Positions 45,758 through 63,915 of a stretch of 64,000 nucleotides of DNA are shown here, piece after piece. The position numbers were made by a program, and so were the translations under genes. The notes under the pieces were generated by a model that saw nothing but the letters and a program-made list of their open reading frames with translations, searched no databases and had not been told where the DNA came from. Location of the stretch: contig NZ_QJRC01000098.1 of the NCBI RefSeq assembly GCF_013393325.1, positions 1 to 64,000 on the forward strand. The letters are read 5' to 3'. Each line of letters begins with the position of its first letter. The stretch's first letter is position 1. This DNA comes from Pseudomonas hunanensis. GTDB lineage: Bacteria > Pseudomonadota > Gammaproteobacteria > Pseudomonadales > Pseudomonadaceae.

Positions 45758-46489
45758 TCAGCTACGTCGATCGATGCCAGGCACCAAGCCCAGCTCGGTA
45801 GCGCGCTCATACAACCCGCTCATCTTCCACTGCTGGGTCAGCACCCCCGGCCCATAAGGCCGCGACCCACCCAAGGCGTCCGCCAACAGCTGAATCTGCG
45901 CGCCCTCCTCCAGCAACAGGATGAACTCCGCCGTGGCCCGCAACCCCTGCTTGCCCCACACCGTGGCGCCGCCGTTGGCTTCCAGGATCGCCAGGTTGAA
46001 CGGGTTCTCGACGATCTTGTCGAGAATGAAGTCCACCTCGGCCTGGCGCCGGTCGATGTACACCGGCAGCTCGCGGGCCAGTTGGTAGCGCTGCACCGGC
46101 ACATAGTGGAACGGCAAGGTACGGTGGGTCTGGGCCCAGGCGCCGAGGTACGGGCTGTGCACGTGTGACACGGTGGTGATGTCGGCGTGGGTCTGGAACA
46201 GCTTGGTGTAACGGCCCAGGCCACCTTTGCCCTTGCCGACGATGACGTTGCCGGAAAAGTCGGTCACCGTGGCCTGCAGTGGCTTGTGGTGGTTCCACGG
46301 GCCGCCGTAGTTGACCGCTACCAGCAGTTCTTCACCGGGCACCCGCTCGATAAAGCCGACCGTGCCATTGGCTGTGATGGTGTTGGTTTCGCGAAAGACG
46401 CTGAAGGCCGCTTGCGCTTCGGCCACCACCTGGTCGATGAAGGTTTGCAGTTCGGCAGTGATGGGGCGTTCGTTGATCAGTACGGTCAT
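45758..46489 (-). CDS. Class II aldolase/adducin-family protein
   Basis: A 243-residue metal-dependent aldolase-fold protein. The ATG at 46489 has GGAG seven bases upstream; a TTG two codons earlier is less likely. The metal-binding HVHSPYLG is present with a second His-containing stretch (TLPFHYVPVQRY). The protein has 2 Met and no Cys. In a sulfur operon it may cleave or isomerise the carbon skeleton left after sulfur removal, or a thio-sugar-like substrate. This is inference from position only. Confidence 0.8.
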   Translation of the reverse strand: MTVLINERPITAELQTFIDQVVAEAQAAFSVFRETNTITANGTVGFIERVPGEELLVAVNYGGPWNHHKPLQATVTDFSGNVIVGKGKGGLGRYTKLFQTHADITTVSHVHSPYLGAWAQTHRTLPFHYVPVQRYQLARELPVYIDRRQAEVDFILDKIVENPFNLAILEANGGATVWGKQGLRATAEFILLLEEGAQIQLLADALGGSRPYGPGVLTQQWKMSGLYERATELGLVPGIDRRS

Positions 46490-46507
46490 GTTCAATCTCC
46501 GGTCAGG

Positions 46508-47569
46508 TCAGGCGCGGCGCTGGGCCAGCAGTTCATGGGCAGCTTGCAGGGGCCGCGGGTCGACCCAGTCGGCGATGGCGAAGTCGGCTTCGAGGAAGCC
46601 GTGCAGGTAGAGGAAATCTTTTTGTGTGCCAAGGAAGGCCAGGCGCTGCTCGGACAGGTCTGGCGCCAGGGTGGTGTGGAAATCGCCACGGTAGGCGTCA
46701 GCCACGCCTTGGCTGCCAGCGCGGGTTTCTTCTTCGAGGATGCGATTGAGCGCGGCACGGTTGCCGGCTGCCCATTCGGCAGCACGCAAGGTCTGAGCAA
46801 GGAAGCGCACCACCAGGTCAAAATGGTTGTCGAGCAGGCGCTGGTGCACGGTGATCGGGCGCGGTGTGCCGTTGTTGATGCGGTGGCGTGAGTCGGGCAG
46901 CAGGTCGAGGTCGACGCCGACCACCAGGCCCAACCGGCGTGCCGCATCAGCCGCTGCCGCGCCCTTCACGTACACCGCATCGACGTCACCGCGCGCCAGG
47001 TACTCCAGCCCCGACCACAGCCGTTGCAGGCCCAACTGCGGGGTGGCGGCGTCGGCCTGGTCAAGCAGAGCCACTTCCACCAACTGCACGTCATCCAGGT
47101 GCAGGCCAGCCGAAGCCAGGGCGCCTTTGTAGCCGTGCAGGCTCATGGCCCGAGCGATGCTGCCGGGGCGGCTGTCGCCCCAGGCCGGCAGGGCCAGGCG
47201 TTTGCCGCGCAGGTCGGCGGCGCTGCGAATACCGGAGTCTGGGCGGACCAGAATGGTTTGCCATTCCTCGATCCAGGTCAGGCCGATCAGCCGGCTGGGC
47301 GAGCCTGCAGCGCGCGCCGCCAACGCCGGTACGTTGCCGCCTTCGCGCAGCAGCCCAGGCAGCTGGTGATCGTAATGGTGATGGCCCAGCTGGCGGGCCT
47401 CCTGCAAGGTCGAGACCGGCAGGCCGTCGGGGGCGAACTCTTGTTCCAGCCAGCCGAGCTTGTAGGCGATGCCAGAGGCGGTAGGCACGGGGCAGCGGGT
47501 GAACCAGATGCGCTCCAGGGCGGACGGGTCGTCCGCCAGGCGTTTTGCGGTGGGGGTTGCGAGGGTCAT
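46508..47569 (-). CDS. DszB-type sulfinate desulfinase (cytoplasmic)
   Basis: A 353-residue protein with the binding-protein fold but no signal peptide. The N-terminal FTRCPVPTASG matches the active-site motif of DszB (YSNCPVPN, Cys27). Here Cys26 is followed by His65 (HHHYDH) and Arg75 (LLREGGNVP), with the same ten-residue His-to-Arg spacing as His60 and Arg70 of DszB. DszB releases sulfite from aryl sulfinates. Cys26 is the only Cys, and Met occurs twice. It is the first gene of the leftward operon behind the sigma-54 promoter at 47603. It could be misread as a sulfonate-binding protein. Confidence 0.82.
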   Translation of the reverse strand: MTLATPTAKRLADDPSALERIWFTRCPVPTASGIAYKLGWLEQEFAPDGLPVSTLQEARQLGHHHYDHQLPGLLREGGNVPALAARAAGSPSRLIGLTWIEEWQTILVRPDSGIRSAADLRGKRLALPAWGDSRPGSIARAMSLHGYKGALASAGLHLDDVQLVEVALLDQADAATPQLGLQRLWSGLEYLARGDVDAVYVKGAAAADAARRLGLVVGVDLDLLPDSRHRINNGTPRPITVHQRLLDNHFDLVVRFLAQTLRAAEWAAGNRAALNRILEEETRAGSQGVADAYRGDFHTTLAPDLSEQRLAFLGTQKDFLYLHGFLEADFAIADWVDPRPLQAAHELLAQRRA

Positions 47570-47859: not shown

Positions 47860-49092
47860 ATGAGCGCCATAGAACCCTCCCCCGCCCGCCGCCTCACCAG
47901 CGAAGCTCAAGCCATCGAAGCCGCCCGCCAGGTTGCTGCACAAATCGCCGAGCTGGCCGCCGACCCGCGCAACAACGGCCAGCTCCCCCACCGCCAAGCC
48001 GAGCTGTTATCCAGCAGCGGCCTGACCGCCATCGCCGTGCCGGCCGAATTCGGCGGCCTGGGTGCCTCGGTGCAGACCGTGGTCGAAACCGTGCGCCTGG
48101 TTTCCACCGCCGACGGCGGCGTCGGCCAACTGCTGCAGATTCACAACGTGATGCTGCGTGGCATCTTCACCGGCTACCCGGATGAAGTACGCGACCGGCT
48201 GATTGCCGACGTGCTGGCTGGCAAGCGCTTCGGCAATGCCCTGGCCGAAATCGGCGGCAAGAACAAGTTCGCCCTCAAGACCCGCGTCGAGCGCCGCGCC
48301 GACGGCCAGTGGGTACTCAACGGCAGCAAGTTCTACTCCACCGGCTCCTACCTGGCCGAGTGGATCTCGCTGACTGCCGCCAGCGAAGACGGCGGCGTCG
48401 GTGTGCTGCTGCACCGCGACACCCCCGGCTTGACCCTGGTCGATGACTGGCAGGCCTTCGGGCAGCAAAACTCGGTGAGCGGCACGGTGAAGTTCGACGA
48501 TATCGTGCTCGACGAACGCTACCTGACCCGCCGCAGCGGGCCGATGAAACGCACCGGTCTGACCTTCCCGCAGATCCTCCACGCGGCCATCGACACCGGC
48601 ATCGCCGCAGGCGCATTGCAGGCGGCGGTCGAGTACCTGCGCGAACATGCCCGCGCCTGGGTGGAAAGCGGCGTCGAGCGCGCCAGTGACGAGCCGCATG
48701 TGATTCGCCAGGTCGGCGAGTATGCCGTGGCGCTACGCGGCGCCGAGTCGGTGCTGCGCGAAGCGGCGCGGGTGTTCGACGAACACGAGCGCGATCCGCA
48801 GAACAAGGCGTTGCAGGATGAGCTGATCTTGTCGGTGGCTACCGCCCGTGCGCATTCCGATGCGGCGTCGCTGAAAATTTCCAGCGACCTGTTCTCGCTG
48901 CTGGGGGCCAGCGCTTCGCTCAGCAAGTGGAACCTCGACCGCTTCTGGCGCAATGCCCGGGTGCACACCACCCACGACCCGATCCGCTGGCGCCTGCACA
49001 ACGTCGGCAACTACTACCTGAACGGGGCGGATCCCGGGGAGTACACGGCTGTGCTCAATGCCAAGGAGAACCAGGGCGCTACACGCCGCTGA
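47860..49092 (+). CDS. Acyl-CoA-dehydrogenase-fold flavoprotein monooxygenase (SfnB/DszC-like)
   Basis: A 410-residue flavoprotein. It has the acyl-CoA dehydrogenase fold (AVPAEFGGLGASVQTVVETV; GNALAEIGGKNKF; VLNGSKFYSTGS) with a C-terminal helical domain (NLDRFWRNARVHTTHDPIRW). This motif is the DszC/SfnB group that uses reduced flavin and oxygen on sulfur compounds; the glutamate base of true dehydrogenases is not evident. It contains 3 Met and no Cys. It is divergent from a DszB-type gene with shared control, the natural partner in a sulfoxidation-desulfination route. Confidence 0.85.
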   Translation: MSAIEPSPARRLTSEAQAIEAARQVAAQIAELAADPRNNGQLPHRQAELLSSSGLTAIAVPAEFGGLGASVQTVVETVRLVSTADGGVGQLLQIHNVMLRGIFTGYPDEVRDRLIADVLAGKRFGNALAEIGGKNKFALKTRVERRADGQWVLNGSKFYSTGSYLAEWISLTAASEDGGVGVLLHRDTPGLTLVDDWQAFGQQNSVSGTVKFDDIVLDERYLTRRSGPMKRTGLTFPQILHAAIDTGIAAGALQAAVEYLREHARAWVESGVERASDEPHVIRQVGEYAVALRGAESVLREAARVFDEHERDPQNKALQDELILSVATARAHSDAASLKISSDLFSLLGASASLSKWNLDRFWRNARVHTTHDPIRWRLHNVGNYYLNGADPGEYTAVLNAKENQGATRR

Positions 49093-49184: not shown

Positions 49185-50960
49185 ATGAACCACCCTCTTC
49201 TTCGGGCCTTGGCCATCTATCGCGAAATGCCTTGGCGCTTCGCCCTGGTCACAGCCTTGTACATTGCCGGCAACCTCGGCTTGGCCTGGCAACAGTGGCT
49301 GATCGGCCACGCGGTCGACGATGTCAGCAGCGGCCGCGCCGTACAGCGCCTGGCCGATGGCAGCCTGGACGCCAGCATAGCCTGGCACTGGCTGTGGCTG
49401 CTGCTGGCCATTGCCCTGGGGCGCGGCCTGTTGCAATACGCCGCCGCCGTGTTGTCACTGGTACTCAGCCAGGCCCTGCTCACGCGCCTGCGTGAGCGCA
49501 TCCTCAGCCAGGTGCAGTACCTGCACCTGGGCTACCACTGGCGCCACGGCATGGGTGAACTGGTTACCCGCACCACCCGCGATGCCGACAAGGTGCGCGA
49601 CGCGCTGATCACCTTCTGGCGGCAGATCATCGAAACGCCGCTGGTGGTGATCGCTGCCGTTGGCCTGTTGAGCTGGTACGACCCGCTGTTGGGCCTGGTG
49701 CCCTTGTTGCTGACCGGTGCCGGGCTGTGGCTGTTCGTGGTACAGACCGACCGCCTGGTCACCCTCGACCGTGCCGTGGGCGCCGCCTACGACCAGGTCA
49801 GCCAGGACCTGGCCGAAGGCATTGGTGGGGTGCGGGTAATCAAGGCCTTCGGCCTGGAAAAGCAGCGCATCGCCCGTTTTGCCAGCCAGGTCGAGGTGTT
49901 CACCGGCCATGCTCGCACCGCCCTCGCCTACGCCAGCTCGCGCATTCCGCTGCCGCAGGCGGTGGTGGCGCTGGGGCATGTGTGGATCCTGGTCTATGGT
50001 GCCCAGCGCGTGGCAGCCGGCACGCTGGGCATCGGCGAGCTGGTCACCTCGCTGCTGGTGGCGACCACGCTGGTGTTCCGTATCGAAGGCATTGGCCGGG
50101 TGATGCAGACGTTTGCCGATGCCCGCGCCAGCGCCGAACGCATCTGGCAGTTGCTGGACGAGCGCCCGGCCATCATTGGCGGCCATGCCGCCCTGCCCGC
50201 CGGGCCGTTGGGGCTGAAGCTCAACCAGGTACACGTCAATGCTGCAGAAGCGGGCCGGCACATCCTGCACGACTGCTCGCTGACCCTGCGACCCGGCGAA
50301 GTGGTGGCGCTGGTCGGCGCCACCGGCACCGGCAAAAGCCTGCTGGCCAGCCTGCTGCCACGCCTGGCCGATGTGCAAAGCGGTAGCGTGCAGGTCGGTA
50401 GTGACAGTACCGGTTGGCATGACCTGCGCGACCTCGACCTGGCCGACCTGCGCCACCGCGTGCAGGTACTGCCGCAGGAGAGCTTTCTGTTCTCTGACAG
50501 CCTGGCCGCCAACTTGCGCATGGCCGCACCGCAGGCCAGCGACGCGCAGTTGCGTGAAGCCTTGCGCCTGGCCGCCGCCGAGGATGTGCTGGAGCGCCTG
50601 CCACACGGCCTGGACACCCCGCTGGGCGACCGTGGCGTGACCCTGTCCGGCGGCCAGCGCCAACGCCTGTGCCTGGCCCGCGCGCTGCTTGGGGCACCCG
50701 ATATCCTCTGCCTGGACGACGCCACCAGCGCCTTGGATGCACTGGGCGAACGCCAGGTACTGCACAACATCCGCCGCCTGCACAGCACAAGTGGCCAAGG
50801 CCCGACCTTGCTGCTGATCACCAGCCGCCTGTCCACCCTGCTGCTGGCCGACCGCGTGCTGATGCTGGAAAACGGCCGCATCGGTGCCTCCGGTAGCCAT
50901 GCCGAACTGAGCACGCACAACGCCCATTACCGCGACCTGCTGGGGATCGACCATGACTGA
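49185..50960 (+). CDS. ABC exporter half-transporter, degenerate-site subunit
   Basis: A 591-residue membrane-ATPase fusion with six helices (about 15-300) and one nucleotide-binding domain. Walker A GATGTGKS (near 378) and LSGGQRQRLCLAR are canonical. Walker B is ILCLDDATSALD, with Asp where the catalytic Glu should be, and the H-loop reads LLITSRLST with no His. This NBD cannot be catalytic at its own site and should pair with the canonical Walker B of the next gene's product. It overlaps that gene by eight bases. Composition is ordinary (several Met and Cys), unlike the sulfur enzymes. Confidence 0.9.
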   Translation: MNHPLLRALAIYREMPWRFALVTALYIAGNLGLAWQQWLIGHAVDDVSSGRAVQRLADGSLDASIAWHWLWLLLAIALGRGLLQYAAAVLSLVLSQALLTRLRERILSQVQYLHLGYHWRHGMGELVTRTTRDADKVRDALITFWRQIIETPLVVIAAVGLLSWYDPLLGLVPLLLTGAGLWLFVVQTDRLVTLDRAVGAAYDQVSQDLAEGIGGVRVIKAFGLEKQRIARFASQVEVFTGHARTALAYASSRIPLPQAVVALGHVWILVYGAQRVAAGTLGIGELVTSLLVATTLVFRIEGIGRVMQTFADARASAERIWQLLDERPAIIGGHAALPAGPLGLKLNQVHVNAAEAGRHILHDCSLTLRPGEVVALVGATGTGKSLLASLLPRLADVQSGSVQVGSDSTGWHDLRDLDLADLRHRVQVLPQESFLFSDSLAANLRMAAPQASDAQLREALRLAAAEDVLERLPHGLDTPLGDRGVTLSGGQRQRLCLARALLGAPDILCLDDATSALDALGERQVLHNIRRLHSTSGQGPTLLLITSRLSTLLLADRVLMLENGRIGASGSHAELSTHNAHYRDLLGIDHD

Positions 50961-52800
50961 TGTGCAGCACACCCCTGCCAGCGATATCGACACCGAGCAA
51001 CGCCTGGCCCGGCAGGCGCTGGACCGTGGCATGTTCCACCGCCTGCTGCCGCTGCTACGGCCTGTTCGCGGGCAGATCCTGGCAGTGATCGGCATCGAAC
51101 TGCTGCTGGTGTTCACCGTGTTCCTGCGCCCGTGGTTCGTGCGCGAACTGCTGGACAATGGCCTGGTGCCCAGCGCCGACCACTGGCTGCTGGATGAGCG
51201 CCTGGTGCTGTGGCTGGGCCTGGGGCTGGCGGCGAGCTGGCTGGGGCGTTTTCTGCTGGCCGGGGTGTCGCAGTTCGTTGCCGGACGCGCTGCCATCGGC
51301 GTGCTGAACGCGCTGCGGGTGAAGGTGTTTGCCCATGTGCAGGCGCTGTCGGTGAGCTATTTCGACCAGACCCGCGCCGGGCGCATCATTTCCCGCGCCG
51401 ACCGTGACGTGGATGCGCTGGAGCCGCTGCTGGTGCAAGGCCCGCCGGAGCTGCTGGGTGCCTTGCTGCGCTGCGGCCTGGCGGCGGTGATGCTGTGGCG
51501 CATCGAGCCCAGTTTCTTCTACAGCCTGGCCGCCACAGTGCCGCTGCTGGCCGTGGCCACCTGGCGTTTCAAGCGCGTGTCGCAACGCAACTGGGCCAAG
51601 GTGGCCGAACAACGCAGCCGCTTCACCGCGCACCTGGTAGAAAGCGTCAGCGGGGTGCGGCTGATCCAGCAGTGCGGGCAAGAGCAGCGCAACCAGGCGC
51701 GTTACCGGCGCCTGCTGGAGGACTTCAACCAAGCGCTGATTCGCGGCAGCCTGCGCGCCGGCTGGTTCGCCCCGTTCACCGCATTGCTGAGCACCACCGG
51801 CATGGCGGTACTGCTGCTGGTCGGCGCCCATGGCCTGGCCGAGGGCAAGGTGAGTGTGGGCCAGGTGGCCGAAAGCCTGTTCTACGTGTTCCTGTTCCTT
51901 GGGCCATTGCAGGAGCTGTCGGACCTGTTCGAGCGCTATGCCACCGGCAGTGCCTCGGCCCAGCGCATCTTCCTGCTGCTCGACACCCGCCCGCAGGTGC
52001 TCGACCCTCCGGTACCGCAGGCGCTGGCCCGTGCGCGCGGCCAGGTGGACTTCGACAGCGTCGGTTTTGCTTACGCACCCAACAGTCCCCGGCCTGTGAT
52101 CGATGGGCTCGACCTGCATATCCGCGCCGGTGAGGTGCTGGCCATCGTCGGCCCCTCCGGGCATGGCAAGAGCACGCTGGTGCAGCTGCTGACGCGCTTC
52201 TACGAAGTGCAGCAAGGCGCCATCAGGCTCGATGGCATCGACCTGCGCGCACTGGCCCAGCACGATCTGCGGCGCAACGTGGGCGTGGTGTTGCAGGACA
52301 ACGTGCTGTTCAGTGGCAGCATCCTCGACAACCTGCGCCTGGCCGCGCCCGACGCCGACGACGCGCAGTTGGTGGCCGCCGCCCGCGAGCTGGGTGCCGA
52401 CGAAGTGCTGGAACGCCTGCCGCAGCGCTACCACACCGAAGTCGGCCCACTGGGCGCGCACCTGAGCCATGGCCAGCGGCAGTTGGTGTGCCTGGTGCGG
52501 GCGTACTTGGCCGACCCGGCGGTGCTGGTGCTCGACGAAGCCACCTCGGCGGTGGACGTGCACACCGAGCGGCGTATCCAGCGCGCCCTGCGCCGACTGT
52601 GCCAAGGGCGTACCGCAATCATCATCGCCCATCGCCTGGCGACCATCCGCGATGCCGACCGGATTGCCGTGGTGAAGCATGGGCGGGTGGTGGAGCAAGG
52701 GGCGCATGCCGATCTGATCGGGCGTAGCGGTGCTTATGCAGCGCTGTACGAAGCCTATCTGCGCAGCGCCGGGGAGGTTGCAACCGAAGCTGCGCATTAA
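50953..52800 (+). CDS. ABC exporter half-transporter, catalytic subunit
   Basis: A 615-residue partner subunit with six helices and one NBD. Walker A is GPSGHGKST, Walker B VLVLDEATSAVD with the catalytic Glu, and the H-loop IIIAHRLAT is intact. The signature is LSHGQRQLVCLVR, altered from LSGGQ. Paired with the preceding protein this gives one normal and one degenerate ATP site, as in heterodimeric exporters such as TM287/288. The cargo is not known; its location suggests efflux of a desulfurised end product or a toxic intermediate. Confidence 0.9.
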   Translation: MTDVQHTPASDIDTEQRLARQALDRGMFHRLLPLLRPVRGQILAVIGIELLLVFTVFLRPWFVRELLDNGLVPSADHWLLDERLVLWLGLGLAASWLGRFLLAGVSQFVAGRAAIGVLNALRVKVFAHVQALSVSYFDQTRAGRIISRADRDVDALEPLLVQGPPELLGALLRCGLAAVMLWRIEPSFFYSLAATVPLLAVATWRFKRVSQRNWAKVAEQRSRFTAHLVESVSGVRLIQQCGQEQRNQARYRRLLEDFNQALIRGSLRAGWFAPFTALLSTTGMAVLLLVGAHGLAEGKVSVGQVAESLFYVFLFLGPLQELSDLFERYATGSASAQRIFLLLDTRPQVLDPPVPQALARARGQVDFDSVGFAYAPNSPRPVIDGLDLHIRAGEVLAIVGPSGHGKSTLVQLLTRFYEVQQGAIRLDGIDLRALAQHDLRRNVGVVLQDNVLFSGSILDNLRLAAPDADDAQLVAAARELGADEVLERLPQRYHTEVGPLGAHLSHGQRQLVCLVRAYLADPAVLVLDEATSAVDVHTERRIQRALRRLCQGRTAIIIAHRLATIRDADRIAVVKHGRVVEQGAHADLIGRSGAYAALYEAYLRSAGEVATEAAH

Positions 52801-53100: not shown

Positions 53101-54249
53101 ATGACCACCGAATTCTTCTGGCGCCTGCCCTTGGGCACCGACGGCCCGCAGTTGTCCACCGACCGCCACAACCGCGGCAACCCCCGGCACCGCGCCGGCA
53201 ACATCGCCCCCGGTCGCCTGCCCGATGGCCAGGCCGACGGCTTTACCTACATCGACTACATCGCCCAGGTGGCCAAGGCCGCCGAGCTGGCCGGCTTCGA
53301 GGGTGCGCTGCTGCCCACCGGCCCGGAGCCGTGGATTGCCGCCGCCGCGCTGGCCCGCGAAACCCGCCGTATCCGCTTTTTGATCGCCTTTCAGGCCACC
53401 TGGACCCTGCCCGCCTATGCCGCCCAGCAGGCGGCCATTCTGCAAAACCTCAGCGGAGGGCGGCTGGACTGGAACATCATCACCGGTGGCAACCCGGCCA
53501 GCCAACGCGCCAATGGCGACTTCCTCGAACACGACCTGCGCTACAAGCGCACGGGCGAATTTCTCGACGTGATCCAAGGCCTGTGGACGCAAGACTCGTT
53601 CTCCTACGATGGCGACATCTACCGCCTGGAAAACGGCAGCCTGCCGCCAGGCCTGCAACACGAACGCAAACCAGGCGTGTACTTCTCCGGCTTTTCCGAT
53701 GCCGCGTTGAACGTGGCCGCGCGCCATGCCGACGTGTACCTGAACTGGGCTGAACCGATCGACAAGCTCAAGCCGCATATCGATCGGGTACGCGAGCTGG
53801 CCGACAAACAGGGTCGCACGGTGCGCTTCGGCCTGCGCGTCGACCTGTTCGCCCGCGAAACCGAAGAGCAGGCCTGGCGCGAGCTGCGCCAGCAGTTCGA
53901 GCGCCTGGAAGGCAAGGCCAGCAGCACGGCGAAAAACTTCATCACCGGCTCCGACTCGGTCGGCGGCGCGCGCCAGGCCGCGTATCACCAGGGCTTGCAG
54001 GGCTTCGACGAACTAATCCTGGCACGCAACCTGTGGGCCGGCTTCGCCAAGGCCAAGCCTGGCCCAACCGTGGGCCTGGTGGGCAGCCACCAGAACATCG
54101 CCGAGCGCCTGGCCGAATACCGCGATGCCGGTTTCAGCACCTTCATCCTCGCCGCCAACCCGCACCTGGAAGAAGCCCTGCGCATCGGCCAGGAAGTGCT
54201 GCCGCTGGTGCAACAGGCCACCCCTACCCTTTTGCAGGCCAGCGCCTGA
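53101..54249 (+). CDS. SsuD-like FMNH2-dependent monooxygenase
   Basis: A 382-residue luciferase-fold enzyme related to that at 32432-33631 (FTYIDYIAQVAKAAELAGFE, RFLIAFQATWTLPAYAAQQA, GRLDWNIITGG, PHLEEALRIGQEVLP). Only the initiator Met and no Cys occur in 382 residues. It follows GGAG by a few bases, and is the first gene of an operon with two DszB-type genes, so its product is expected to be a sulfinate. Confidence 0.9.
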   Translation: MTTEFFWRLPLGTDGPQLSTDRHNRGNPRHRAGNIAPGRLPDGQADGFTYIDYIAQVAKAAELAGFEGALLPTGPEPWIAAAALARETRRIRFLIAFQATWTLPAYAAQQAAILQNLSGGRLDWNIITGGNPASQRANGDFLEHDLRYKRTGEFLDVIQGLWTQDSFSYDGDIYRLENGSLPPGLQHERKPGVYFSGFSDAALNVAARHADVYLNWAEPIDKLKPHIDRVRELADKQGRTVRFGLRVDLFARETEEQAWRELRQQFERLEGKASSTAKNFITGSDSVGGARQAAYHQGLQGFDELILARNLWAGFAKAKPGPTVGLVGSHQNIAERLAEYRDAGFSTFILAANPHLEEALRIGQEVLPLVQQATPTLLQASA

Positions 54250-54268: not shown

Positions 54269-55333
54269 ATGAGCCAACCCCTCGATACCTTGTGGTACAC
54301 CCGTTGTCCGGTGCCCACGGGCCTTGGCATTGCCGTGCAGCAAGGCTGGCTGCAGGAGGACCTGGCCAGCCTTGGCACCCAGGTGCAGTCGCTGCGCGAA
54401 GCCGAGCAGCAGGCCGTGCGTGAATCGCACTTTGACCACAGCCTGCTGAACTCGGTACGTCATGGCGGCAGCATCCCGGCCATCTGGGCCCGCGCCCAGG
54501 GCCGCGATACCCGCGTGATCGGCCTGTCGTGGGCCGATGAGGCGCAGTTGATCCTGACCCGACCAGACAGCGGCATCCACACCGTCAAAGACCTCAAGGG
54601 CAGGCGCTTCGGCCTGCCCGACTGGGCTGCGGCGCAAATCGACTTCACCCGTGCCCAGGTCCTGCGCGGCCTGGAAAACGCCTTGAAACTCGAAGGGCTG
54701 CAAGTGGGCGATGTAGCGTTGGTCAACTACCGCTACGACGGCACCTTCAGCGACCGACCAGTGCGCAACGTGGCCGGCACTCCGGTATCCAGCACCCAGA
54801 GCGAAGGCCGTAACCTGGAACTGGCCGGCCTGCTGCGCGGCGAGGTGGACGCGATCTTCCTCAAAGGTGCCAGCGCCGTGCAACTGGCCCACGCCTTTGC
54901 CCTGCGCACGGTGATCGACACCGGCAGCCACCCCGACCCGCTGATCCGCAGCAACAATGGCACACCGCGCACCCTGGCGGTGGACAGCCACCTGCTGGCG
55001 CAGCACCCGCAGGTGGTGCACACGCTTCTTGGCTCGGTGCTGCGCGCCGAGCGCTGGGCCCATCAGCACCCGGATGAAACCCGCCGCTACCTGGCGCGGG
55101 AAACCAACAGCAGCGAGTACTGGGTGCAAGTGGCCTACGGCACTGACGCCCACCTGCGCCTGAGCACCCGCCTGGACGATCAGGCCATTACCGCCTTGCA
55201 GGACTTTGTCGAGTTCCTCGAACGCTGGCGCTTCATCCCGGCGCGCTTCGAGGTGCGCGACTGGATCGCCCAGCAACCACTGGACCAGCTGCTGGCCCCC
55301 ACCTCCATGGAAAGGAAACCCGTTACCCCATGA
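54269..55333 (+). CDS. DszB-type sulfinate desulfinase, Cys form
   Basis: A 354-residue cytoplasmic protein (no signal peptide) with YTRCPVPTGLG at the N-terminus. Cys13, His54 (ESHFDH) and Arg64 (SVRHGGSIP) correspond to Cys27, His60 and Arg70 of DszB. The only Cys in the protein is the predicted nucleophile, and it has 2 Met. It is predicted to release sulfite from a sulfinate made by the upstream monooxygenase. The GTCPVP-type fold is that of periplasmic binding proteins, so automated annotation may call it a transporter component. Confidence 0.82.
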   Translation: MSQPLDTLWYTRCPVPTGLGIAVQQGWLQEDLASLGTQVQSLREAEQQAVRESHFDHSLLNSVRHGGSIPAIWARAQGRDTRVIGLSWADEAQLILTRPDSGIHTVKDLKGRRFGLPDWAAAQIDFTRAQVLRGLENALKLEGLQVGDVALVNYRYDGTFSDRPVRNVAGTPVSSTQSEGRNLELAGLLRGEVDAIFLKGASAVQLAHAFALRTVIDTGSHPDPLIRSNNGTPRTLAVDSHLLAQHPQVVHTLLGSVLRAERWAHQHPDETRRYLARETNSSEYWVQVAYGTDAHLRLSTRLDDQAITALQDFVEFLERWRFIPARFEVRDWIAQQPLDQLLAPTSMERKPVTP

Positions 55334-56388
55334 CCAAGCCCCTGGAAACCCTCTGGTACACCCACAGCCCGGTGCCCACCGGCCTCGGCATTGCCGTGCA
55401 GTCGGGGCGCCTGGCTGAGGCCTTTGCGCCGTTCGGCACCAACATCCAGTCGCTGCGCGAATCCAGCGAACGCGAGGTGCGCGAGGCCCATTACGACCAC
55501 CACCTGCAGAACTCGGTGCGCCACGGCGGCAACATCCCGGCGATCTGGGCCTATGCCAGCGGCGTCGATACCCGCGTGCTGGGGCTGTCGTGGAGTGATG
55601 AGGTGCAGCTGATCCTCACCACCGAAGAAAGCGGCGTACGCAGCATCCGCGACCTGAAAAACCGTCGCTTCGGCATACCCAAGTGGGCCAACGTGCAGAT
55701 CGATTTCACCCGTGCCCAGGCCCTGCGCGGGCTGGAAAACGCCCTGAAGCTCGAAGGCCTGGCCGTGGCCGATGTCGAATTGGTCGACTACCCCTACGGT
55801 GGCACCTACAGCGACGACGCCAAGCAGCACCTGTATGGCGCCGAAGTGAGCCTTGACACCAGCCGCTTCAGCCGCCGCAACAACGAGCTGATCGGCCTGC
55901 TACGGGGCGATATCGACGCCATCTTCCTCAAGGGCGCGCATGCCGTGCACCTGGCCCATGAGTTTGGGCTGCGCGTGGTGGTGGATACCGGCAGCCACCC
56001 CGACCCGCTGATCCGCAGCAACAACGGCACCCCGCGTACACTGACCGTGGACCGGCACTTGCTGGAGAACCACTTCGATGCCAGCCGCACGCTGGTCGAC
56101 ACGGTGCTGCGCACCGAGCAATGGGCCTGGGCCAACCCGGAGGAGACCCGGCGCTTTCTGGCGCGTGAGCTGAACACCAGCGAGTACTGGGTGGCGGCGG
56201 CCTATGGCGACGATGCGCATCGGCGCTTGCGCACAACGCTGGACAGCCGCTCGATCGGGGCGTTGCAGGACTTTACCGAGTTTCTGTTCAGGTGGGGGTT
56301 CATACCCCGGCGCTTCGATGTGCGGGAGTGGATTGATTTTCGCGTGCTGGAGAGTGTGATCGGTTCGACGTCGCGGTTGGCAGTTTGA
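55330..56388 (+). CDS. DszB-like paralogue with Ser in place of the catalytic Cys
   Basis: A 352-residue protein translationally coupled to the preceding gene (4-base overlap) and strongly similar to it. The N-terminal motif is YTHSPVPTGLG, so residue 13 is Ser, while His54 (EAHYDH) and Arg64 (SVRHGGNIP) are kept. The initiator is the only Met and there is no Cys at all. In DszB, a Cys-to-Ser change at this position abolishes activity but permits ligand binding, so this may be a regulatory or carrier partner, or act on a different chemistry. A heterodimer with the Cys form is possible. Confidence 0.78.
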   Translation: MTKPLETLWYTHSPVPTGLGIAVQSGRLAEAFAPFGTNIQSLRESSEREVREAHYDHHLQNSVRHGGNIPAIWAYASGVDTRVLGLSWSDEVQLILTTEESGVRSIRDLKNRRFGIPKWANVQIDFTRAQALRGLENALKLEGLAVADVELVDYPYGGTYSDDAKQHLYGAEVSLDTSRFSRRNNELIGLLRGDIDAIFLKGAHAVHLAHEFGLRVVVDTGSHPDPLIRSNNGTPRTLTVDRHLLENHFDASRTLVDTVLRTEQWAWANPEETRRFLARELNTSEYWVAAAYGDDAHRRLRTTLDSRSIGALQDFTEFLFRWGFIPRRFDVREWIDFRVLESVIGSTSRLAV

Positions 56389-56593: not shown

Positions 56594-58837
56594 ATGCACC
56601 AACGTCATCCACTGGCCCGCCAGATCAGCCTCGCGCTGCTGTTGGCCGGCACCGGCAGCCAAGCTATCGCCGCCGACGAAAACAATAAAAACGAACCAGC
56701 CCTGGAAACTGTCACCGTCACCGCCCAGCATCGCGAACAGACCTTGCAGGAAGTCCCGGTCGCCGTATCGGCCATCAAAGGCACCAGCATCACTGCCGAC
56801 GGTGTGCGCTCGATGGGCGACATCACCACCTTCGTGCCCAACGCCTCGGCCAAGAACCCCGACGGCGACGGCCGCCCGCGCTGGTACATCCGTGGCCTGG
56901 GCACCGGCGACACCGGTGCGGCAACGGTCTACCCAGTGGGCATCTACGCCGATGACGTGTACCTCAACGCCCCCATCGCCGGTGGCGGGCCGTTGTTCGA
57001 CCTGGAACGCATCGAGATCCTGCGTGGGCCGCAAGGCACCCTGTATGGCAAGAACACCACTGCCGGTGCAGTGAACGTGATCTCGAAAAAGCCGACGTTC
57101 GACACCGATGGCTATGGCACGGTCGGCTTTGGCAGCAAGAGCGAGCGCATCGTCACCGGTGCCATTGGTGGTGCGCTGGTGGATGAAAAACTGGCCGGGC
57201 GAGTAGCGCTGTATTCCGAAGAACGCGACGGTTTCCAGAACAACGACTTCGACGGCAACACTTATGGCGACGTGAACAAAAAGGCCATCCGCCTGCAGTT
57301 CCTGGCCCAGCTCAACCCCGACCTGGACGCCCTGCTCAAGCTGCACAGCCGCCAGTTCAAAGGCGACGGCAGCAATGGTTCGCTGCCGGTGGGCCGCTAC
57401 TACAACGTCGGTTACGAACGCCCGCAGGGTCGCGACATTTCGCTGAACGTCAACGAAGACTACCGCCTGGACCACGACGGCGCCTCGCTGACCTTCAACT
57501 GGTACCTGGGCGACTACACGCTGACCTCGATCAGCGCCTACGACTACATCCGCAACCGCTCCACCAGCGATGCCGACTACACCCCCTACGAGGTCAACGG
57601 CGCGGCCATCACCGACAACAGCTACCGCCAGTGGTCGCAGGAGCTGCGCCTGGCCTCGCCGGAAGACCGCCCACTGCACTGGTTGGTGGGCGCCCACTAC
57701 TTCCATGAAGACCTGGACAGTTCTGCCCAGCGCATCGTCACCCCCGGCCCCACGCCCAACGGTACCGGCTCGAACCAGGTGGGCACTACCGCGTTCCGCG
57801 ACCTGGGCTACGATCACCGCACCGACAGCTACGCGCTGTTCGGCAACTTGACCTATGACTTCACCGATGACTTCAGCGTGACCGGCGGCCTGCGCTGGAC
57901 CCAGGAGAAAAAGGACATCGACCTGGACCTGGTGCAGTTGACCCGCGCCACGGCCAACGGCCCGCTGATTCCACTGGGCGGCGTAGGCACCAACGGCAAC
58001 CGTCAGGAAGACAAGACCTGGGAAGCCTGGACCTACGACCTGACCCCCGAGTACCGCATCAACGACAACCTGCGGGTGTTCTTCCGCTACGCCCACGGCT
58101 TCCGTTCGGGTGGCTTCAACACCGGGCTGTCGACCAGCCTGGCGCAATTGACCACGGTCGACCCGGAAGAACTGGATGCCTACGAACTGGGGCTGAAGTC
58201 GGAGTGGTTCGACCGTCGCCTGACCGTCAACGCCAACCTCTTCTACTACGACTACTCCGACATCCAGGTGAACCTGCTGACAGTGAACAGCGGCGTACTC
58301 ACCACCGCATTGACCAACGGCGCCAAAGGCAAGGTCAAGGGCGCGGAGCTGGAGGTCGAGGGCCAGCCGACCGAGCGCCTGCACCTGCGCGCGGCGGTTT
58401 CGTTCCTGGACACCGAGTACACCGATTTCAAGAACACCAACCCCACCACCGGCGCGGTAACCGGCGACTACAGCGGCAACAGCTTCGTGCGCTCGCCACG
58501 CAACGTGGTGTCGCTGGGTGCCGACTACACCATCCCGCTGGAGGTCGGCGGCAAGCTGGTGGCCGGTGGCGACGTGAGTTTCCGCGACAAAGAGTATTTC
58601 CTGGCCGACCGCCAGAGCAGCGCCGACGAAACCCTCAGCCAGCCCCACTACACCCTGGCCAACGCGCGGCTGAGCTGGTTCAGCCATGACGACAAGCTGA
58701 GCGTGACGGGCTTCGTCAACAACCTCACCGACCGCCGCTACCAGGTGCATGGCCGGCCCAACGGCACTGCCGGGCAGTACGTGATCACCTACGGCGACCC
58801 ACGCACCGTCGGGCTCAGCGTTACCAGCCGCTTCTGA
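56594..58837 (+). CDS. TonB-dependent receptor for a sulfur compound (predicted)
   Basis: A 747-residue receptor. Signal peptide (LARQISLALLLAGTGSQAIA), then a plug (LQEVPVAVSAIKGTSITADG; LRGPQGTLYGKNTTAGAVN) of the vitamin/complex-substrate type, not the siderophore type, and a barrel ending TSRF. No STN domain. It has 2 Met and no Cys in 747 residues. Sulfur-starvation-induced TonB receptors such as SftP are known in P. putida for sulfate esters, which this could resemble. Confidence 0.85.
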   Translation: MHQRHPLARQISLALLLAGTGSQAIAADENNKNEPALETVTVTAQHREQTLQEVPVAVSAIKGTSITADGVRSMGDITTFVPNASAKNPDGDGRPRWYIRGLGTGDTGAATVYPVGIYADDVYLNAPIAGGGPLFDLERIEILRGPQGTLYGKNTTAGAVNVISKKPTFDTDGYGTVGFGSKSERIVTGAIGGALVDEKLAGRVALYSEERDGFQNNDFDGNTYGDVNKKAIRLQFLAQLNPDLDALLKLHSRQFKGDGSNGSLPVGRYYNVGYERPQGRDISLNVNEDYRLDHDGASLTFNWYLGDYTLTSISAYDYIRNRSTSDADYTPYEVNGAAITDNSYRQWSQELRLASPEDRPLHWLVGAHYFHEDLDSSAQRIVTPGPTPNGTGSNQVGTTAFRDLGYDHRTDSYALFGNLTYDFTDDFSVTGGLRWTQEKKDIDLDLVQLTRATANGPLIPLGGVGTNGNRQEDKTWEAWTYDLTPEYRINDNLRVFFRYAHGFRSGGFNTGLSTSLAQLTTVDPEELDAYELGLKSEWFDRRLTVNANLFYYDYSDIQVNLLTVNSGVLTTALTNGAKGKVKGAELEVEGQPTERLHLRAAVSFLDTEYTDFKNTNPTTGAVTGDYSGNSFVRSPRNVVSLGADYTIPLEVGGKLVAGGDVSFRDKEYFLADRQSSADETLSQPHYTLANARLSWFSHDDKLSVTGFVNNLTDRRYQVHGRPNGTAGQYVITYGDPRTVGLSVTSRF

Positions 58838-58880
58838 TTGAAAACCATTGGGCTGCTGCCACAAGGAGCCCGCGCTCCCT

Positions 58881-58924
58881 CTGTAGGAGCGGCCTCGCGT
58901 CGCGATGGGCTGCGCAGCAGCCCC
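58881..58924. repeat. Single REP unit between the two TonB receptor genes
   Basis: CTGTAGGAGCGGCCTCGCGT followed by GGGCTGCGCAGCAGCCCC. It is a variant of the REP type elsewhere in the window, in the 117-base gap. Confidence 0.6.
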
Positions 58925-58954
58925 AAGGCATCACGCCGTATAGAAGGATTACCC

Positions 58955-61402
58955 ATGCCCCACCACACCCCCCTGGCCAGCGCCATCGCCCTGGCCATCG
59001 CCGGCCTCGCCATGCCCGCATTCGCCGCCGAACCCAACGACCGCCTCGACACCGTGGTCGTGGTCGGCACCCATCGCAGCGACGTCACCGCCCTGCAAAG
59101 CGCCGCGCCAGTCGATGTGCTGAGCGGTGAAAAACTTCAGGAAACCGGCGCCAGCGACCTGTCCGCAGCGCTTACCGCGCTGTCACCCTCGTTCAGTTTC
59201 CCGCAGTCGCCCCAAGGCGCCTTTGCTGGTTCCATTGCCCAAGGCGCCTCGCTGCGCGGCCTGGCCTCGGACCAGGTACTGGTACTGGTCAACGGCAAGC
59301 GCCGCCATACCAGCGCCAACGTCACCCGCCAGGGCCTGGTCAACGCCCGTGGTGCGGCAGCAGTGGACCTCAGCCTGATCCCGCTGTCGGCCATCGAACG
59401 GGTGGAAATCCTGCGCGACGGCGCCGCTGCGCAATACGGTTCGGACGCCATCGCCGGGGTGATCAACATCGTGCTCAAGGAGCGCGACGAAGGCGGCAAC
59501 GCCGGCTACCGCTTCGGTGGCTACAAGAAAGGCGACGGTCTGCAGCGCAAACTCAGCGGCTGGAAGGGCTTTGCCCTGCCCAACGACGGTTTCCTGACCC
59601 TGGCATTCGACGCGGGCAGCCAGGACCCGGCCAGCGACACCCGCGACGACAACCGCCTGTTCTACCCAGGCTCCACCAGCATCGACACCCCGCGCGAGCA
59701 GAACAACCGCTACCGCAACTGGCGCTGGGGCTCGGGCAATGTCTCGGACCAGTACAACTTTACCGCCAACGCTGAAATGGGTTTGAGCGAAGGCTTGAGT
59801 GCCTATGGCTTCGCCACCTATGCGCACAAGAACACCGACGCCGAGAACTTCTTCGACCCGCCGACCACGTTGCGCAACAACTACGGCAGCGTAGCCCTGG
59901 CGCGCTACCCGGACGGCCGCCTGCCAGTCACCCGCTACGGCCTGGAAGACTTTGCCGTCACCGGCGGCCTGCGTTTTGAAAACGAAACCCTGGGCAACTT
60001 CGACCTGGCGCTGAACTACGGCGACAACCGCGTCGACTCCACCGACCACGACGCCATCAACCCCAGCTGGGGCACCGCCAGCCCGTCGACCATCTACACC
60101 GGCCGCCGCGAAGCCGACCAGACCAACCTGACCCTGGACTGGACCCGCGACTTCGCCAACGCCTGGCTGTTCAAGCCGCTGACCGTGTCCGCCGGGCTGG
60201 CCTGGCGCCAGGAAAACTACGACCTCAGCGAGGGCGACGCCGCCGGCTGGTCCAATGGGCCATTGTTCAACACGATCGACCCTGTCACCGGCCGGCGTAT
60301 CCCCGGCTACTACTCGGGCATCACCCAGGTCGATGCGGTGTCGCTGGACCGCCGGGTGATCGGCGCCTACTTCGATGTCGAAGCCCAGGTCACCGAGAAA
60401 TTCCAGGCCGGTGTGGCGGTGCGCAGCGAGCACTATTCGGACTTTGGCGACACCACCAACGGCAAGTTGTCGCTGCGCTACGACTTCACCCCGCAGATTG
60501 CCGCGCGGGCCAGCGCCAGCACCGGCTACCGCGCGCCTTCACTGGTGCAAAGCGGGCTGTCGTCGTTCAGCGTGCAGGTGGTGGAACAACCGCCGGGCAG
60601 CGGCAACTGGGTCGAGGTGCAGCAACGCACCCTGCGCGCCGACAGCCCCGAGGCCGCCTTGCTTGGCGGCAAGGCGCTGAAGCCGGAAGAGTCGACCAAC
60701 TTCTCCGTGGGCCTGGTCTGGCGGCCACTGCCAAACGCGTCGGTCACACTCGATGCCTACCGCATCGACATCGACAACCGCATTACCTTGTCCGACCAGT
60801 TGCCGGCTTCGGTGGTCGGCCCGATCTTCGCCGGTACGCCCTACGCAAACATCCAGAGCGCGGCGTTCTACAGCAACATCGCCGACACCCGCACCGATGG
60901 CTTCGAGCTGGCCGGCCACTACCAACTGGACCTGACCGGCTGGGGCCGGTTGGACTTAAACGGCGGCTACGCGCGCAACAATACCCGCATCACCGGCCTG
61001 GACGACGTGGGCGGCATCCCCGGCAACCAGATCATCGGCCGCAACACCCAGGGCCTGATCGAGGACGGTACGCCCAAGGACAAGCTGACCCTCAGCGCCA
61101 ACTGGCTGTATGACGGTTGGAGCGTCACCGTGGCCCAGCGCCGCTATGGCGAGTGGAAAAACCGCAACGCTGCCAACCCGACGCTGGACCAGACCTTCAG
61201 CCCGCAGTGGGTGACCGACCTTGACGTGTCATACCGTTTCGACCTGGGCCTGACCTTGTCGGCGGGTGCGATCAACCTGTTCGACAGCCACCCGGACAAG
61301 CTCAAGGGCGCACAGCTGTATGGCGTACCGAAATACTCCATCACCAGCCCGGAGGGGGCGCAGGGGGCGTTCTACTACACCAGTGTGAGTTACGATTTCT
61401 GA
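58955..61402 (+). CDS. TonB-dependent receptor for a sulfur compound (predicted)
   Basis: An 815-residue receptor. The ATG at 58955 has AAGGA upstream and opens a signal peptide (AIALAIAGLAMPAFAAEP). The plug (LSAALTALSPSFSFPQSP, LRGLASDQVLVLVNGKRRHT, VEILRDGAAAQYGSDAIAGV) and barrel end in SYDF. The pattern is of the cobalamin/saccharide-type subgroup. It has 3 Met, one in the predicted mature protein, and no Cys. It follows another receptor and is followed by a terminator hairpin. Confidence 0.85.
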   Translation: MPHHTPLASAIALAIAGLAMPAFAAEPNDRLDTVVVVGTHRSDVTALQSAAPVDVLSGEKLQETGASDLSAALTALSPSFSFPQSPQGAFAGSIAQGASLRGLASDQVLVLVNGKRRHTSANVTRQGLVNARGAAAVDLSLIPLSAIERVEILRDGAAAQYGSDAIAGVINIVLKERDEGGNAGYRFGGYKKGDGLQRKLSGWKGFALPNDGFLTLAFDAGSQDPASDTRDDNRLFYPGSTSIDTPREQNNRYRNWRWGSGNVSDQYNFTANAEMGLSEGLSAYGFATYAHKNTDAENFFDPPTTLRNNYGSVALARYPDGRLPVTRYGLEDFAVTGGLRFENETLGNFDLALNYGDNRVDSTDHDAINPSWGTASPSTIYTGRREADQTNLTLDWTRDFANAWLFKPLTVSAGLAWRQENYDLSEGDAAGWSNGPLFNTIDPVTGRRIPGYYSGITQVDAVSLDRRVIGAYFDVEAQVTEKFQAGVAVRSEHYSDFGDTTNGKLSLRYDFTPQIAARASASTGYRAPSLVQSGLSSFSVQVVEQPPGSGNWVEVQQRTLRADSPEAALLGGKALKPEESTNFSVGLVWRPLPNASVTLDAYRIDIDNRITLSDQLPASVVGPIFAGTPYANIQSAAFYSNIADTRTDGFELAGHYQLDLTGWGRLDLNGGYARNNTRITGLDDVGGIPGNQIIGRNTQGLIEDGTPKDKLTLSANWLYDGWSVTVAQRRYGEWKNRNAANPTLDQTFSPQWVTDLDVSYRFDLGLTLSAGAINLFDSHPDKLKGAQLYGVPKYSITSPEGAQGAFYYTSVSYDF

Positions 61403-61599: not shown

Positions 61600-62352
61600 A
61601 TGCGCGTGCTCTCGTCCCTTTCCTGGTTCATCTCACCCCTGGCCCTGCTCACCCTCTGGGCGGCGGTGGCCAACGCCGGGCTGTTTCCGGCCAACCTGCT
61701 GATCCCGCCACTGGAGGTATGGCACAGCCTCACCGACCTGCTGGCCACCGGCGAGCTTCAGGAACACCTGGCCGGCAGCCTGTCGCGGCTGGCCCTGGGC
61801 TTTACCGGTGGTGCCCTGGCAGGCCTTGCCTTTGGCGCGGCGCTGGCCCTGTCGAAAACCGTGGAGGCCTACTGCGCCCCACTGTTCCATACCTTGCGCC
61901 AGGTGCCCAGCATCGCGCTGATCCCGATGTTCGTGCTGCTGTTCGGCGTCGACGAAACCTTCAAGGTGGTCATCGTCGCCAAGACTGCGTTCTTCCCTGT
62001 GGCACTGGCCACCTGCGAAGGCATCCGCGCGATCCCGCGCAGTCATTTCGAAGTGGCAGCGGTGTACCGCTTGCGCTGGCCCACGCTGGTAGGTCGGATT
62101 GCCCTGCCCGCTGCTGTGCCGGCCATCGTCACCGGTATTCGCGTGGCCCTGACCCGCGCCTGGGTGGTGCTGGTGGCCTGCGAACTGCTGGCGGCCGACA
62201 GCGGCCTGGGGCAGATGATCGAGATGGGCCGGCAGATGCTACGCATCGATGTGGTGATGGTCGGCGTGGTACTGACCGGGCTGATCGGCTTTGCCCTGGA
62301 TTTCACCTTGCGCCGTGTGGAACGGCGCCTTTCTGCCTGGCAAAACCGCTGA
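61600..62352 (+). CDS. Sulfonate/taurine-type ABC permease (SsuC-like) 1
   Basis: A 250-residue inner-membrane permease with about six helices. The EAA loop is VAAVYRLRWPTLVGRIALPA, and VPSIALIPMFVLLFG is the SsuC-type helix-loop. It lies 10 bases before a second, different permease gene and is predicted to form a heterodimer with it. Confidence 0.9.
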   Translation: MRVLSSLSWFISPLALLTLWAAVANAGLFPANLLIPPLEVWHSLTDLLATGELQEHLAGSLSRLALGFTGGALAGLAFGAALALSKTVEAYCAPLFHTLRQVPSIALIPMFVLLFGVDETFKVVIVAKTAFFPVALATCEGIRAIPRSHFEVAAVYRLRWPTLVGRIALPAAVPAIVTGIRVALTRAWVVLVACELLAADSGLGQMIEMGRQMLRIDVVMVGVVLTGLIGFALDFTLRRVERRLSAWQNR

Positions 62353-62362
62353 GGAGGATGAG

Positions 62363-63118
62363 ATGAAACTGCAGAACATACGTGGCCTGGTGTTACCGCT
62401 GTTGCTGCTCGGTGCATGGGAATATGCCTCGCGCCAGGGGGCGGCTGGTGCCTATGCCTTCGTGCCACTGGCCCAAGTGGGCACGGCACTGACCGAGCTG
62501 CTGGGCAGCGGTGAATTGCTGGTCAACCTGTGGGCGAGCCTGCTGCGCACCTGCAGCGGCCTGGCCATCGGCATTGTCGGCGGTGTCGGCCTGGGGGCAC
62601 TGATGGCCCTGTCCGCACCGGCCAACCGCCTGATCGCGCCGCTGTTCCATGCCCTGCGCCAGGTACCGATGCTGGGCTGGATCCCGCTGATTGCCTTGTG
62701 GCTCGGTAATGGAGAAGGCGCCAAGCTGTTGATCGTCAGCCTGGCGGCGTTGTACCCCATGGTGCTGAACACCTTCGAAAGCCTGCGCCAGGTCACTGCC
62801 CAGCACCGTGAAGCCGCGCAGGTACTGATGCTCAGCCGTTGGCAGCAACTGTGGTTGATCCTGCTGCCGGCGGCTCTGCCTGGCATTGCCGCCGGGGTGC
62901 TGCAGGCCTTGGCCTTCGCCTGGGTAACTTCGGTGGGCAGCGAACTGTTCCTGTCCGCTGGCGCCGGCCTTGGCAGCCTGATGATGAATGCCGAAGCCAC
63001 CGCACGCATGGAGATCATCGTGGTCTGCGTGCTGTGCATCGGCCTGAGTGGCTACCTGATGTCCTGGCTGTGCACCCTGCTCACCCGCCGCCTGCTGCGC
63101 TGGCGCACCAACCATTGA
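62363..63118 (+). CDS. Sulfonate/taurine-type ABC permease (SsuC-like) 2
   Basis: A 251-residue permease. The start at 62363 has a strong GAGGAGG ribosome site. The SsuC features are VPMLGWIPLIALWLGNGEG and the EAA loop EAAQVLMLSRWQQLWLILLP. It is the partner of the permease at 61600-62352. Typical Ssu systems use one permease as a homodimer, so two different genes are notable. Confidence 0.9.
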   Translation: MKLQNIRGLVLPLLLLGAWEYASRQGAAGAYAFVPLAQVGTALTELLGSGELLVNLWASLLRTCSGLAIGIVGGVGLGALMALSAPANRLIAPLFHALRQVPMLGWIPLIALWLGNGEGAKLLIVSLAALYPMVLNTFESLRQVTAQHREAAQVLMLSRWQQLWLILLPAALPGIAAGVLQALAFAWVTSVGSELFLSAGAGLGSLMMNAEATARMEIIVVCVLCIGLSGYLMSWLCTLLTRRLLRWRTNH

Positions 63119-63129
63119 AAGGCCCAACC

Positions 63130-63915
63130 ATGAACGCCATCGCCCACGCTTTACCCACCACCGCCAGCACTGGCGCGCTGACCATTCGCGGCCTGAACAA
63201 GGCGTACCCGCTCAAAGGCAAGCCGGTACCGGTGCTCGAAGGCATCGACCTGGCCATTCGCCCTGGCGAATTCGTCAGCATCCTCGGCGCCAGTGGCTGT
63301 GGCAAATCCACCCTGCTGCGGCTGATTGTCGGGCTCGATCAGGACTACCAGGGGCAGATCCTGCTGGACCAGCAACCCGTGCGCGGGCCAGGCCTGGAGC
63401 GCGGCATCGTGTTCCAGGACCACCGCCTGTTCCCTTGGATGACCCTGCAGCAAAACATTGCCCTGGCCTTGAAAAACCATGCGCTACCGGCGCTGGAGAA
63501 GAACCGCCTGGTGGCCGAGCACATCGACCTGGTGGGCCTGAGTGGTTACGAGCAGGCCTACCCGCACCAGTTGTCCGGCGGCATGGCCCAACGCGCGGCG
63601 ATTGCCCGTGCCTTGGTGAACAAGCCCAAGGTGCTGTTGCTGGACGAACCGCTTGGCGCCCTGGATGCACTGACCCGAGTGCGCTTGCAACAGGAGTTGC
63701 AGCGCATTTGGGTACAGGAGCGCTGCACGGTGATCATGGTGACCCACGACATCGAAGAAGCGTTGTACCTGGGCGACCGGGTGATCGTCATGGATGCACA
63801 CCCAGGGCGCATTCGCGAGGACCTGCGTATCGACCTGCCGCACCCGCGCCAGCGCGATAGCCAGGTGTTGCAGGGGTACAAGCAGCGGTTGCTGGGAGAA
63901 CTGGTGGGGCAATGA
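63130..63915 (+). CDS. Sulfonate/nitrate-type ABC ATPase (SsuB-like)
   Basis: A 261-residue ATPase. Walker A GASGCGKST, Q-loop FQDHRLFPW, signature LSGGMAQRAAIAR, Walker B LLLDEPLGALD and H-loop MVTHDIEEAL are all complete. The start at 63130 is used because the upstream open frame is antisense-like read-through of the permease gene. No binding protein is present between here and the end of the window; the SsuA-like one at 30111 is a candidate partner. Confidence 0.93.
   Translation: MNAIAHALPTTASTGALTIRGLNKAYPLKGKPVPVLEGIDLAIRPGEFVSILGASGCGKSTLLRLIVGLDQDYQGQILLDQQPVRGPGLERGIVFQDHRLFPWMTLQQNIALALKNHALPALEKNRLVAEHIDLVGLSGYEQAYPHQLSGGMAQRAAIARALVNKPKVLLLDEPLGALDALTRVRLQQELQRIWVQERCTVIMVTHDIEEALYLGDRVIVMDAHPGRIREDLRIDLPHPRQRDSQVLQGYKQRLLGELVGQ

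Follow-up and report, generated by a model that had tools for sequence, protein, structure and literature searches.

What does a protein related to the desulfinase DszB do when serine stands in the place of its catalytic cysteine, and why is it encoded side by side with a copy that has kept the cysteine? This question is raised by a gene (S) in the contig NZ_QJRC01000098.1 of Pseudomonas hunanensis, of which we analysed a stretch of 64,000 nucleotides, hereafter the window.

The Ser form and its gene cluster

The initial annotation of the window had described S as a DszB-like gene with Ser at residue 13 and with His54 and Arg64 retained, overlapping the Cys-form gene by four bases and specifying a protein with a single Met and no Cys. 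All of this was borne out. Translation of the open reading frame and alignment with DszB give the motif YTHSPVP, with Ser as residue 13 and with both His54 and Arg64 in place; the start codon of S and the stop codon of the Cys form share the bases ATGA; and the S protein of the window contains no Cys and no Met besides the initiator. The overlap itself is found in only 23 of the 127 readable pairs, the other pairs lying on the same strand with a gap of at most 139 bases. The features of the cluster are collected in Table 1.

Table 1. Features of the window discussed in the text (positions are those of the window)
Feature	Position	Strand	Remarks
S form, DszB-fold protein (predicted)	55330-56388	+	352 aa, ATG start
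C form, tandem Cys twin	54269-55333	+	YTRCPVP; 64% identical to S
T form, third, more distant Cys paralogue	46508-47545	-	FTRCPVP; 39% identical to S; true start codon uncertain
LLM, luciferase-like flavin monooxygenase	53101-54249	+	nearest to alkanesulfonate monooxygenase models, scores below their cut-offs
SfnB/DszC-like acyl-CoA dehydrogenase-type oxidoreductase	47860-49092	+	
Class II aldolase-like protein	45758-46495	-	
Two adjacent ABC exporter-type subunits	49185-52800	+	presumed, named from sequence and general knowledge
Two TonB-dependent receptors	56594-61402	+	
ABC importer: two SsuC/SaoP-like permeases and one ATPase	61600-63915	+	all below curated cut-offs
SsuA-like protein	30111-31181		hydrophobic N terminus
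Sigma-54-type activator	28761-29816	-	presumably SfnR-like; upstream of the island; resembles the start of the protein adjoining the L083 cluster

LLM lies directly upstream of C, or of S in loci that lack C. The matches of the cluster to SfnB/DszC-like, SsuD-like and SsuC/SaoP-like models mostly score below the curated cut-offs. A link to the selenoprotein Sao system (PMC13188914), as the model names SaoA and SaoP might suggest, was considered and dropped: only general transporter families match, below their cut-offs. No binding-protein gene directly adjoins the ABC importer module, and in the loci L083 and L089 this module comes almost directly after S. We considered whether S itself could be the exported binding protein of the importer, which is ruled out by the lack of room for a signal peptide. 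Judged by the length of open frame upstream of residue 1, four of the 145 copies have one residue available and 10% have no more than four. S is cytoplasmic and without a signal peptide, several copies leaving no room for one.

Soluble proteins almost free of Cys and Met are the expected look of a sulfur-starvation island. Between positions 45758 and 61402 of the window, no soluble enzyme or receptor has more than one Cys or more than two Met besides the initiator, and LLM has no Cys and no Met beyond its start; no such thrift was seen in the membrane transporter subunits of the cluster. Cys is absent from 81 of the 100 distinct S proteins that we compared. Nonetheless, thrift alone does not explain the swap of Cys for Ser, since C and T are equally thrifty (on average 1.08 and 1.04 Cys) and have kept their one catalytic Cys. 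At the level of codons the change is small: Ser13 is encoded by AGC or AGT in 104 distinct S genes, which differ in a single base from the twins' TGC or TGT.

Among solved structures, searches by sequence and by fold both returned 2DE3 (DszB C27S) first and 2DE2 (wild-type DszB) second. The AlphaFold2 model of S (mean pLDDT 89.7) matches 2DE3 with a Z score of 32.8 over 316 aligned residues, 2DE2 with 31.2 and then SsuA with 25.9; by this model, S has the DszB fold. Ser13, Thr11, His54, Arg64 and Gly67 align with Cys27, Ser25, His60, Arg70 and Gly73 of DszB. The two proteins share the fold over nearly the whole chain, the His60/Arg70 pair and the RXGG motif, the absence of a signal peptide and a sulfur-acquisition setting with flavin oxygenases. 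They differ in that Cys27 of DszB is Ser and Asn26 is His in S, at an overall identity of 25%; moreover, S stands in tandem with a Cys form, and its LLM is nearer to alkanesulfonate than to DszA-type NCBIfam models. In DszB the hydroxyl of Ser25 bonds His60, which steadies the Cys27 thiolate, and the C27S variant is inactive, with a DFT barrier raised from 31.4 to 37.4 kcal/mol (PMC6100217, partial text). The same variant holds substrate in structure 2DE3.

More distant similarities were also found. The SsuA/TauA sulfonate-binding proteins of ABC importers (2X26, 3KSX, 6SSY) belong to the same fold family (Z 20-26), and the best NCBIfam model for S is SsuA_fam, yet at 85.6 bits against a cut-off of 163.5. 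Unlike these proteins, several S copies leave no space for a signal peptide, and S carries the His/Arg/RXGG set of DszB. Thi5, MqnD and 4,5-dihydroxyphthalate decarboxylase share the general fold (Z about 15-17.5) at 10-17% identity and act on other substrates; they illustrate that this fold can host chemistry besides desulfination.

Conservation and distribution of the Ser form

In the fetched loci, YTHSPVP is present in all 145 copies of S with a readable motif, which, because the collections overlap, reduce to 100 distinct proteins. The one remaining copy of the 146 lacks the motif (L090, genome G359); there the S gene and the adjoining TonB1 receptor gene are both broken, for which either decay or a sequencing error may be responsible. 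The initial annotation had allowed for Ser being a sporadic change in one strain. This is not the case, as Ser13 is found in every readable copy and the copies form one clade.

Every one of the 100 distinct S proteins has His12, Ser13, Arg27, Ala53 and His58, together with Thr11, His54, Arg64, Gly66 and Gly67, while all 154 distinct Cys forms of the first set (C, T and others) have Arg12-Cys13. The invariance of Ser13 alone is not unusual, considering that 187 of the 352 columns of the S group are at least 97% conserved. Only eight of the 352 columns are fixed (at 95% or more) to different letters in S and C, namely 12, 13, 27, 53, 194, 195, 216 and 283, with the catalytic column and its neighbour among them. 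When a wider set is considered, Arg27, Ala53 and His58 each also occur in some Cys form, and His12 plus Ser13 is confined to the Pseudomonas S group; outside this group DszB has Asn, and one Paracoccus protein has Gln, at residue 12. At the level of sequence, the S group appears to have been re-tooled beyond the loss of one residue.

S forms a single clade (SH-aLRT 100) of single origin, with or without the wider relatives; the C forms are one clade in one tree (97) and are not resolved as one in the other. Across the 93 loci that have a single S and a single C, the median dN/dS is 0.175 for S vs 0.264 for C, and S is lower in 3594 of the 3893 usable pairs, by a simple counting method and over pairs that share ancestry and are not independent. 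At the protein level S is the more conserved of the two in 3565 of 4278 pairs, and the comparison of S with T (1154 pairs) gives medians of 0.097 vs 0.124. Both S and C are under purifying selection, S more strongly.

The tandem seen in the window is conserved elsewhere, as the initial annotation had thought worth surveying. A match to S at E 1e-40 was obtained in 60 of 398 Pseudomonas genomes; 57 of these carry an S-type copy of at least 69% identity (one of them broken), and 49 of the 57 have the C twin in tandem. The harmless rhizosphere strain P. capeferrum WCS358 (L107) is among the carriers of the C-S pair. No C twin without S was found in the 398 genomes (0 in the 341 lacking S). The reverse situation, S without its twin, occurs in eight of the 57 genomes (G127, G226, G009, G319, G332, G130, G302 and G359, the last being the one with the broken S gene). 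Named records of twin-less loci are those of P. entomophila COR5, P. palmensis, P. japonica, P. huaxiensis, P. haemolytica, P. sichuanensis, P. putida GM4FR and the strains Irchel 3E13, SDI, KBW05 and CBZ-4, several of which are the same assemblies as the genomes just listed. In 12 twin-less loci checked, the LLM gene ends no more than about 80 bases from S, and no other C twin was found. The trees put twin-less S at three or more separate positions, each in a starred clade: one beside the S of the window, one beside P. wadenswilerensis (in which the twin is present) and one as a clade of four rows. We read the absence of the twin as loss of C, gain elsewhere being the formal alternative.

Of the 57 S genomes, 46 also encode the third paralogue, T, at an identity of at least 64%. 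All 11 genomes without T have the C twin and all eight twin-less genomes have T, which is also present in three further twin-less genomes (five searched, two of them repeats). None of the 60 S genomes tested (57 of the genus sample and three more) is without any Cys form; each has C or T. If the losses were independent, the eight and 11 absences would lead us to expect about 1.5 double absences among the 57 genomes, against none found, which is a weak point. Still, a Cys-type relative kept in every S genome tested suggests that S probably does not replace desulfination.

The same C-S pair was also found outside Pseudomonas, in three genomes from a sister genus of the same family and, among named records, in Stutzerimonas kirkiae (L171). 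At E 1e-50, the class sample gave one match in 369 genomes, which is the genome of the window itself, and the phylum sample gave seven in 398, a number repeated by a profile search (7/398). In one genome, G229, the complete Cys-Ser tandem is present twice, on separate contigs (L065, L066).

Other losses of the catalytic cysteine

A search of a plasmid collection returned relatives in rhizobia, Burkholderia, Variovorax, Paracoccus and Sphingobium. Burkholderia has a Ser form of its own, with the motif YARSPVP (L188:2156-3208 (-), L206:13234-14286 (-), L209-L212 and L237-L253), which is present in 21 of the 65 genomes of the Burkholderia genus group; 20 of these have three matches and one (G1342) has two. 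The siblings whose motif was read are Cys forms, and a relative of the LLM monooxygenase lies nearby. Like S, the YARSPVP form is a natural Cys-to-Ser paralogue of DszB clustered with Cys forms and a related monooxygenase, and it is constrained, with a median dN/dS of 0.101 (246 pairs, 23 genes). It differs from S in its separate origin and in its signature, which over 23 distinct rows combines Ser13 with Ala instead of Thr at residue 11 and Ile instead of His at residue 54, with Arg12, Trp27 and Arg64 kept. Having dropped Thr11 (DszB Ser25) and His54 (DszB His60) along with the Cys, the Burkholderia Ser form looks like a pure binder.

In a tree of 99 rows, calculated without the active-site columns by a quick method and with some long branches, the starred branches require three origins of Ser and four departures from Cys. 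Contig C71 of G1184, a genome of a Burkholderiales family, encodes six DszB-like paralogues at E 1e-60 (L213/L259, L234/L262 and L236 among them). Three of the G1184 paralogues are without the catalytic Cys and have the motifs YARSPVP, YSRSPVV and VRPPVP, with Ser, Ser and Pro at the site, respectively. A reverse loss is seen on the Sphingobium plasmid pTomTYG65a, in which the relative at L187:9216-10268 (+) has kept the catalytic Cys (VTRCPVP) and has Asp at the position of His54. It is a single Cys relative, flanked by a monooxygenase and two ABC exporter genes. On the tree, this protein and one Cys form of G1184 fall outside both the C and the S clades, from which it follows that a Cys enzyme was duplicated to give the C-S pair.

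Possible roles of the Ser form

S is old and strictly kept and sometimes outlives its twin; therefore, a separate function of S is probable. The reading that we prefer, with a confidence that stays just short of even, is that S is an old duplicate of the DszB-like Cys enzyme of the operon that performs its own sulfinate- or sulfonate-binding Ser/His step beside LLM, before desulfination by C or T. S would bind the sulfinate or sulfonate-type product of LLM in a DszB-type pocket, presumably held by Arg64 and Gly67. Lacking the Cys as proton donor, it would desulfinate at no useful rate. Instead, a different Ser/His step would most likely be carried out by Ser13, which occupies the position of DszB Cys27, with His54 (DszB His60), Thr11 (DszB Ser25) and the newly acquired His12. 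Such a step might, for example, open or hydrolyse the compound in a cyclic or ester form, after which a Cys form (C or T) would release sulfite. The presence of C or T in every S genome is what would be expected if S does not replace the Cys forms. Survival without the twin and a constraint stronger than that of the twin speak against an inactive partner and favour an independent, re-tooled protein that may still be an enzyme.

Alternatively, S might be a non-catalytic carrier whose part is limited to binding the sulfinate or sulfonate that LLM makes, protecting it or passing it on to C or T, and we take this to be a real, if clearly lesser, possibility. S is the natural equivalent of DszB C27S, which binds substrate (2DE3) and is nevertheless inactive (PMC6100217, partial text). 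The Burkholderia form, which lost its Cys, keeps Arg64, has dropped Thr11 and His54 and is still constrained, suggests that a binder is useful in this family, and a Cys form to which a ligand could be passed is present in 60 of 60 S genomes tested. The His and Arg of DszB contact the ligand too, so pure binding explains their retention in S equally well. Set against this, the Pseudomonas S, unlike the Burkholderia form, has kept the whole catalytic neighbourhood except the Cys in 100 of 100 distinct proteins, and this contrast suggests that chemistry was kept as well. A Thr-His pair with Ser in the place of the Cys could constitute a Ser-His relay. Taken to its full extent, our preferred reading would make S a new enzyme, one swap away from a Cys desulfinase, in which a Ser13-His54-Thr11 relay with His12 catalyses a C-S or S-O step of its own on the LLM product before a Cys form releases sulfite; cysteine-less helpers of this kind would have arisen repeatedly (at least three origins of Ser), splitting one desulfurization between two proteins. 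In so specific a form we consider the proposal rather unlikely.

The initial annotation had left the choice between an active enzyme with a pseudoenzyme partner and a Ser form that uses another reaction. Of these, the latter is the better fit. An obligate complex of S with its Cys twin, or a role of S as its regulator, would agree with the tandem on one strand at 139 bases or less in all 127 readable pairs and with the fact that C never occurs without S in the 398 genomes. Nonetheless, we regard it as improbable, considering that S persists without the twin in eight of 57 genomes, belonging to at least three lineages, and that S is the more constrained of the two. A complex with T is conceivable instead, yet 11 of the 57 genomes are without a T ortholog. 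Equally improbable is that S is a full desulfinase whose serine performs the same reaction. S does take the place of its twin beside LLM in the twin-less loci and has kept the rest of the active site, but the corresponding change abolishes the activity of DszB (PMC6100217, partial text), and none of the 57 S genomes is without both C and T, although this last argument is a weak one given the 1.5 expected. Finally, a decaying or accidental copy with no function, for which the single broken locus L090 could be cited, has a negligible chance of being correct: sporadic change and decay are ruled out by the conservation of S and by its dN/dS, well below 1.

Open-access literature listings contained no account of a naturally occurring Cys-to-Ser DszB or a C-S tandem, and the accessible portion of a P. 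donghuensis paper contains no description of the S cluster. To our knowledge, a natural C27S-type state of DszB, fixed in dozens of species, has not been reported before. The mutation with which crystallographers trapped the substrate of DszB has become fixed in nature in two or more well-populated lineages. The natural pairs make the disputed role of the DszB cysteine testable. Furthermore, stable natural proteins that may hold their substrate uncleaved provide a way to find the sulfur source of the Pseudomonas island. Nor does the loss of a catalytic residue have to imply an inactive partner: in this family it is the "dead" copy that has been retained.
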